From positions 107,568 through 171,567 of the forward strand of contig CAMYKW010000001.1 of assembly GCA_947259175.1 (NCBI GenBank): a DNA stretch of 64,000 nucleotides, read 5' to 3'. Position 1 is the first letter of the stretch. Every line of letters begins with the position of its first letter. Position numbers and translations under genes: made by a program. The DNA comes from an uncultured Gammaproteobacteria bacterium (lineage in GTDB: Bacteria; Pseudomonadota; Gammaproteobacteria; Arenicellales; JAANXG01). Under the pieces are notes generated by a model. It ran no database searches, was not told the DNA's origin, and was given only the letters and a program-made list of their open reading frames with translations. Below are positions 33,358 through 51,417 of this stretch, piece by piece.

Positions 33358-33432
33358 GCTCCCTTCGTCTAGCGGTTAGGACGCCGGCCTCTCACGTCGG
33401 TAACAGGGGTTCGAGTCCCCTAGGGAGCGCCA
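33358..33432 (+). tRNA. tRNA-Glu (anticodon CTC), CCA encoded
   Basis: Acceptor GCTCCCT/AGGGAGC, D-arm TCGTCTAGCGGTTAGGA, anticodon arm CCGGC-CTCTCAC-GTCGG, T-arm CAGGGGTTCGAGTCCCCT. Confidence 0.95.
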
Positions 33433-49444: not shown

Positions 49445-50248
49445 TCAATTCCGGTCCCCGCCGCCGGGCTCATTCAGCATCTCGCGGTACTGATCGTAGG
49501 ATGGGGGGAATCCGCCGGTGTAATTCAGCCAGTTGGTGACCGGATAACGCGCCGCACCTGCCTTGTGCGTCGCCTCGAGGCCTTCGATGATTTCATTCAT
49601 CAGCGAGAATGGAAAACTGAACGCAACTTCATGATCCTGCACCTGACCGAAAATACGGTCCCCCGTGCACGGGACAATCATCTGCGGTTCGCCGCTGAGT
49701 ACCGGAGCGATCGCCACGTCGGCGCAATCGATACGGCCGCGAAATTCACTGTTCAACGTGCCGCCGCGCTTCCACAAATAGGCCTGGCCGAGCCGCATTA
49801 CCTGGGCGCTGTTGGCGTAGATGACGACGGAATCCGGCTCGAATGTAGCGCGGTTCAACGGCGCCAACACCACACCCACATACTTGCCCTCGGGCAACTT
49901 CGGCACGCTGTCCTCGCTGAGCCGGCCGGATTCGAGATTTTCGGTGTACAGGTCGACGCAAAGGTTGCCCGACGTATAGTGCGGTAACCGCTTTTCCAGG
50001 CCCAGGGCCATGGCGCCGAGCACGCAGCTGCTGTCCTCTCGCCCCAGGGCGATCACCCAGCCGAAACGCCGCGACATGGAAATCGCCTGACAGGTGGTGA
50101 AACGGTTATCCAGATCCTTTTTCGGGCGTCGCGCGCGCTCGGGCATTTCGTCCCAGCTGGTGAGAAATTTCACGCATACCGGAAACGTGTTGAGCCGCAG
50201 GTATTTGTTCAACTTTTCGTCGCATTGGGCGAGTTCGCGGGGCTCCAT
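49445..50248 (-). CDS. DUF169-family protein
   Basis: FPVCVKFL...RFTTCQAISMSRRFGWVIALGREDSSCVLGAMALGL pattern. Confidence 0.75.
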   Translation of the reverse strand: MEPRELAQCDEKLNKYLRLNTFPVCVKFLTSWDEMPERARRPKKDLDNRFTTCQAISMSRRFGWVIALGREDSSCVLGAMALGLEKRLPHYTSGNLCVDLYTENLESGRLSEDSVPKLPEGKYVGVVLAPLNRATFEPDSVVIYANSAQVMRLGQAYLWKRGGTLNSEFRGRIDCADVAIAPVLSGEPQMIVPCTGDRIFGQVQDHEVAFSFPFSLMNEIIEGLEATHKAGAARYPVTNWLNYTGGFPPSYDQYREMLNEPGGGDRN

Positions 50249-50570: not shown

Positions 50571-50855
50571 TCAATACTGTATTTTGCGCTTGCAGTTCTT
50601 CGGAACTTTGCTGGCAACCCGATTGAATCTATTCCTGACGTCGTCGGCGATGATGTGGGAATACTCTTCCTCGGAGACCACCCGTCCACTGACGTGCTTA
50701 TAGTTTCCATCGGAACTGCGATGCCAGCTCTGCGTCGCGTTAATTGGAGCGTGTGATGTGATGGGTTGTGTGGCGCAGCCGGCGACCAGCACCGTCGCAA
50801 TCAACCCCAGGATTGAAAACAGCATCTTGCGTGATTGTCCGTCGCGATACGTCAT
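50571..50855 (-). CDS. Small lipoprotein downstream of the c-di-GMP riboswitch
   Basis: MLFSILGLIATVLVAGCATQP lipobox (VAGC); strong purine-rich SD AGGGGGGG before ATG. Confidence 0.75.
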   Translation of the reverse strand: MTYRDGQSRKMLFSILGLIATVLVAGCATQPITSHAPINATQSWHRSSDGNYKHVSGRVVSEEEYSHIIADDVRNRFNRVASKVPKNCKRKIQY

Positions 50856-50959
50856 AATTACCCCCCCTATTAGATAACCGTGACCATTACTTCGATACAG
50901 TTGCTCAGACCCAACCCGCGACAGACTCCGTCACCACGGACACTTCAACTTGGGGAACC

Positions 50960-50982
50960 GAACGGTATTTACCGAACCGTTC
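50960..50982 (-). other. Candidate expression-platform hairpin
   Basis: Minus strand GAACGGT-tcggtaaat-ACCGTTC. Confidence 0.55.
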
Positions 50983-50984
50983 TT

Positions 50985-51068
50985 CCCGGGCAACCCGGCT
51001 ATCTCGTTTGACGCGAGACCCGTGGCTTTCCGTCCCCGCCTCGCGACGGGTTTGGCCTTAGCGGTAAC
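50985..51068 (-). promoter_or_regulatory. Cyclic-di-GMP-I (GEMM-I) riboswitch aptamer
   Basis: Minus strand GTTACCGCTAAGGCCAAACCCGTCGCGAGGCGGGGACGGAAAGCCACGGGTCTCGCGTCAAACGAGATAGCCGGGTTGCCCGGG; GNRA-capped P2 CCCGTC-GCGA-GGCGGG; P3 TCTCG/CGAGA; conserved GGAAAGCC and AUAGCCGGGUUGCC. Confidence 0.9.
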
Positions 51069-51072
51069 TAAA

Positions 51073-51078
51073 AGTATA
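51073..51078 (-). promoter_or_regulatory. -10-like element (TATACT) just upstream of the riboswitch
   Basis: Minus strand CGTCTATACTTTTAGTTACC; no convincing -35. Confidence 0.45.
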
Positions 51079-51417
51079 GACGAAACTGGGAGCGGTTGTG
51101 CTAACGCGGCGAGTTGCGTGTGTATCCGGCCGATAGAAGGTATAACAACCCGCTGCACGCTGCACAGTGCGAGCAACGCGGCTGCGCTTTGATCTTCGAA
51201 CGCATCGATGGGTACTACCACGCACTCCGGCTCGGCGGGTCATGATTTTTTTATGATTTTAGGCCTGTCGACATTTCACTTGATATTCTGGGTTAATGTT
51301 TTTGTTTTCTCTCATGTTTCATTGCACGCGCCTATGACTGGCTTATGTAACATTGTCACAACGGAAACCGAACCACCACCGCGCGTCAAAAATTTGCTGC
51401 CGTTTGTCGTTTAAGGC

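Follow-up and report, generated by a model that had tools for sequence, protein, structure and literature searches.

A predicted class I c-di-GMP riboswitch leading the message of a small predicted lipoprotein in an uncultured gammaproteobacterium

Which signal is read by the structured RNA encoded on the minus strand at 51065-50985 of the window (the whole 64,000-nucleotide stretch of DNA analysed here), and which gene would answer to it? A cmscan search of the whole window matches this RNA to RF03167 with 66.6 bits, above the gathering cut-off of 59 bits for that family, and with an E-value of 1.5e-13 that refers to the 64-kb window, both strands and 4227 families; all 80 model positions are aligned and the match is not truncated. 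The search with RF01051, which the initial annotation had proposed as a check on its GEMM-I reading, gives this site 65.8 bits, with a gathering cut-off of 35. The sequence quoted there is present on the minus strand, and both Rfam models, the full set of ligand-contact residues and the conservation seen across relatives uphold its assignment to GEMM-I; the coordinates given for it, 50985-51068, are right as to the position of the aptamer but run about 3 nt beyond the 5' end of the model. Judging from these sequence data, we regard it as very likely that the element is a c-di-GMP-I (GEMM-I) riboswitch. The only other Rfam match at gathering in the window is a tRNA at 33358-33429, and weak matches to iscRS and RNaseP-T, far under gathering, were taken as chance. 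The open reading frame that overlaps the aptamer (50931-51221) is spurious, as had been supposed, because at least four of five compared orthologous loci have stops in its frame.

The aptamer comprises P1, a GNRA-capped P2 and P3. When it is aligned with its counterparts in the same genome and in kin (17 aptamers in all), the three-helix structure has 91% of its cells paired, and 12 pairs are changed on both sides. The covariation score of this alignment is 0.278 against a mean of 0.190 for shuffled alignments, a value that none of 500 shuffles reaches, and slid controls fall far below the aptamer structure. P1, P2, P3 and the interhelical C44-G83 pair are all present, and the column pair that represents C44-G83 in the alignment (35-73) is invariant. 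The weakest part is P1, with 66% of its cells paired across the 17 aptamers; in the focal RNA it is short and imperfect, with mispair marks in the cmscan alignment. Folded by itself, the aptamer is unexceptional (z -0.77); what supports the structure is the match to the covariance model together with the comparative data.

With regard to the ligand, alignment to the model shows G20, A47 and C92 (Vc2 numbering) in the focal RNA, the standard c-di-GMP set, these three residues having been described as c-di-GMP contacts (PMC3764141, PMC4744006). All kin aptamers that could be read by pattern likewise carry G20 and A47. This bears on the possibility that the focal RNA belongs to c-di-GMP-I-GGC (RF03167), possibly with a different ligand preference, since RF03167 is indeed the top model after clan competition. 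Its consensus, however, has G where Vc2 has A47, and both the focal RNA and the pattern-read kin have A there. In addition, the two sibling models differ by less than 1 bit (66.6 vs 65.8), and the best score seems to be due to general similarity, for example on the ACGGGUC side of P3. The near-tie, together with A47, means that the top label is no evidence for the variant. The name "GGC" presumably denotes the residues at positions 20/47/92; as the diagnostic G47 is absent, the Rfam label was dropped as a call on specificity and the focal RNA is not filed as a GGC variant, a membership that we consider very unlikely. The case shows that a top Rfam label can name a variant without its diagnostic base, a mismatch that matters when automated annotation is used to infer ligand specificity.

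The focal core departs from the usual one solely at pair 21-46, situated beside the ligand and below A47, which is C21-G46 for the usual G21-C46, Watson-Crick pairing being kept through the double change. The same form occurs in more than 100 other genome stretches among the matches listed, whose carriers are mostly Desulfobacterota-like, gammaproteobacterial and Campylobacterota records. A sample drawn from the class yielded nine pattern-readable aptamers, all with G21-C46 (eight with G20, one with A20), the pattern having missed about two-thirds of the loci. We found no statement in the literature that makes the identity of this pair defining for c-di-GMP-I. Because the two forms exchange as a unit in the kin set and the swap is widespread, it is best read as ordinary covariation; the idea that C21-G46 marks a new variant was rejected on the latter ground. 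The focal aptamer is an ordinary additional member of a known riboswitch class and not a new kind.

The gene presumed to be regulated (50571-50855, minus strand) encodes a predicted lipoprotein of 94 aa, with an N-terminal hydrophobic segment followed by LVAGC. Its orthologues, found in five other genomes, four from the genus and one from another genus, have diverged to 34-48% identity, all members of the set being 90-94 aa long. The protein has no Pfam family and no NCBIfam match near cut-off, and nothing significant was found for it in PADLOC or among PDB sequences. A DUF169 protein (49445-50248, minus strand) lies downstream of the lipoprotein gene beyond a gap of more than 300 nt and is probably outside the unit.

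Just upstream of the aptamer, at 51078-51073, lies the TATACT that the initial annotation had noted as -10-like. It predicts a transcript start at about 51066, the first base of the aptamer, in agreement with the earlier placement of the aptamer near the 5' end of the mRNA. This hexamer is part of a sigma-S-like extended -10, the TCTATACTT box (51072-51080, minus strand), which is kept in all six orthologous leaders. Three leaders match the sigma-S extended -10 consensus, KCTAYRCTTAA (PMC5650638), without a mismatch, and the focal leader agrees with it at 9 of its 11 positions; a sigma-70 promoter scan gave no match at the promoter site. The genome encodes RpoS-family proteins (two matches over the curated cut-off), and we infer that the TCTATACTT promoter may be sigma-S-dependent.

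On the minus strand the order runs from a predicted diguanylate cyclase (52584-51418) through the TCTATACTT box (51080-51072), the aptamer and the ribosome site to the lipoprotein gene. The cyclase has a GGDEF domain and a C-terminal PilZ domain (Pfam, 6.1e-42 and 2.1e-12, respectively). Its translation contains GGEEF with RxxD five residues ahead and, in the PilZ part, RxxxR and NxSxxG, which suggests that its catalytic site is intact and that it can bind c-di-GMP. The unit formed by the TCTATACTT box, the aptamer, the G-rich ribosome site and the lipoprotein gene is kept in this order in six genomes of two genera. In all five genus genomes that have the unit, a GGDEF-PilZ orthologue stands directly upstream in the same orientation, its copies in the other four genomes showing 66-81% identity. 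In G003 (86% complete), the sixth genome examined from the genus, the lipoprotein is absent and no close orthologue of the enzyme is seen. Genome-wide, 39 matches to the GGDEF-PilZ query were found, a number that, together with the two RpoS-family proteins, suggests a large c-di-GMP network.

A terminator search of the minus strand between the aptamer and the lipoprotein gene gave no intrinsic terminator. A candidate competing (anti-P3) hairpin, CCGGG-UUG-CCCGG (50986-50998, minus strand), arises from bases straddling C92, and its formation would break P3. Its five pairs are possible in five of the six orthologous leaders, and four are possible in the sixth. Under constrained folding, the ensembles of the competing hairpin and of the aptamer fold are no more than about 6 kcal/mol apart in most leaders, and in several the competing hairpin is the lower of the two, a closeness in energy that is expected of a switch tipped by ligand. 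A further hairpin 3' of the aptamer, GGGAAGAACGGU...ACCGUUCGGUUCCC (50953-50987, minus strand; -15.6 kcal/mol, z -1.15), has no subsequent U-run. The predicted G-rich ribosome-binding site with its start codon, GGGGGGGUAAUUAUG, is at 50853-50867 (minus strand), and all six leaders have such a site ahead of the ATG.

Together, the competing hairpin and the G-rich site suggest control of translation initiation. If the modelled RNA stops at the AUG, the ribosome site is computed to be less open with the aptamer formed in five of the six leaders and unchanged in the sixth; extending the RNA gives no effect or a mixed one. We counted against gating that openness shifts little or inconsistently between folds and varies with transcript length, and we hold the chances of a translational gating step to be evenly balanced, with a slight computed lean to repression as the sign of control. 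Models in which a CCCC segment serves as anti-Shine-Dalgarno were rejected, their computed probabilities being inconsistent across orthologues and lengths.

The imperfect P1 and the lack of a clear expression platform on folding could also mean that the aptamer is degenerate or vestigial and no longer switches the gene. We consider this highly improbable, as all the ligand-contact residues are kept and the order of the leader has held across six genomes while the lipoprotein itself diverged as far as stated above. That the focal RNA senses 3',3'-cGAMP instead of c-di-GMP, the alternative that the initial annotation had named for testing, has a negligible probability, for although the aptamer scaffold is common to cGAMP variants, it is the G20A change that confers cGAMP binding (PMC7288161) and position 20 here is G, not A, so that cGAMP sensing is not predicted and this ligand is disfavoured at the sequence level.

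These considerations allow us to propose a model in which the mRNA of the small predicted lipoprotein starts with a class I c-di-GMP riboswitch. Transcription would begin at about 51066, driven by a promoter whose -10 box is sigma-S-like, and c-di-GMP would be bound through G20, A47 and C92. Binding would lock P3 together with the bases that immediately follow it on the 3' side, thereby excluding the CCGGG-UUG-CCCGG hairpin, and the choice of fold would alter the leader upstream of the G-rich ribosome site and so change translation of the lipoprotein. The c-di-GMP could plausibly be supplied locally by the GGDEF-PilZ enzyme encoded upstream. A more elaborate arrangement, which we think rather unlikely, would be a dedicated local circuit in which this enzyme makes the c-di-GMP, the sigma-S-type promoter and the riboswitch jointly make the lipoprotein responsive both to c-di-GMP and to stress or stationary phase, and the lipoprotein in turn acts back on the same pathway.

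Covariance-model searches find three aptamers of this class in the genome, and the kin aptamers stand upstream of secreted or surface-like proteins. The locus would thereby add a lineage-specific c-di-GMP regulon that includes one aptamer before an uncharacterised small lipoprotein. Several of the other aptamers have features of their own. In a paralogue in the same genome, L003 (G000:C41:19961-20047, plus strand), which precedes a large secreted-like protein, and also in L031, the 3' strand CAGCCGGGTCGCCA is almost perfectly complementary to a downstream TGGCGGCCCGGCTG; the resulting helix would be mutually exclusive with the aptamer fold and looks like a switching element. Five kin aptamers (L009, L017, L027, L030 and L033) have an additional insertion of about 30 nt in P3; a single genome can hold several such aptamers (G017 has five matches), and they mostly stand before secreted-like proteins. 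A small genome of the same class has two tandem GEMM-I aptamers followed by a hairpin with a U-run (L187, G116:C36, 975-1057 and 1197-1279); both aptamers have A in position 20, a substitution linked to cGAMP sensing.

Among the closest known systems is RF01051, represented by Vc2 and Vc1 of Vibrio cholerae, with which the focal RNA has in common the full three-helix layout, the GNRA tetraloop, G20/A47/C92 and C44-G83, as well as its position, predicted here, at the start of a message that encodes a cell-envelope protein. It differs from them in its C-G pair at 21-46, where theirs is G-C, in its short, imperfect P1 and in that no terminator-type expression platform was found. With RF03167 (c-di-GMP-I-GGC), its highest-scoring model, it has P3 sequence in common, but it has neither the G47 nor the G21-C46 pair of that model. 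The scaffold is also that of the 3',3'-cGAMP (GEMM-Ib) riboswitch, from which the focal RNA is set apart by G instead of A at position 20.
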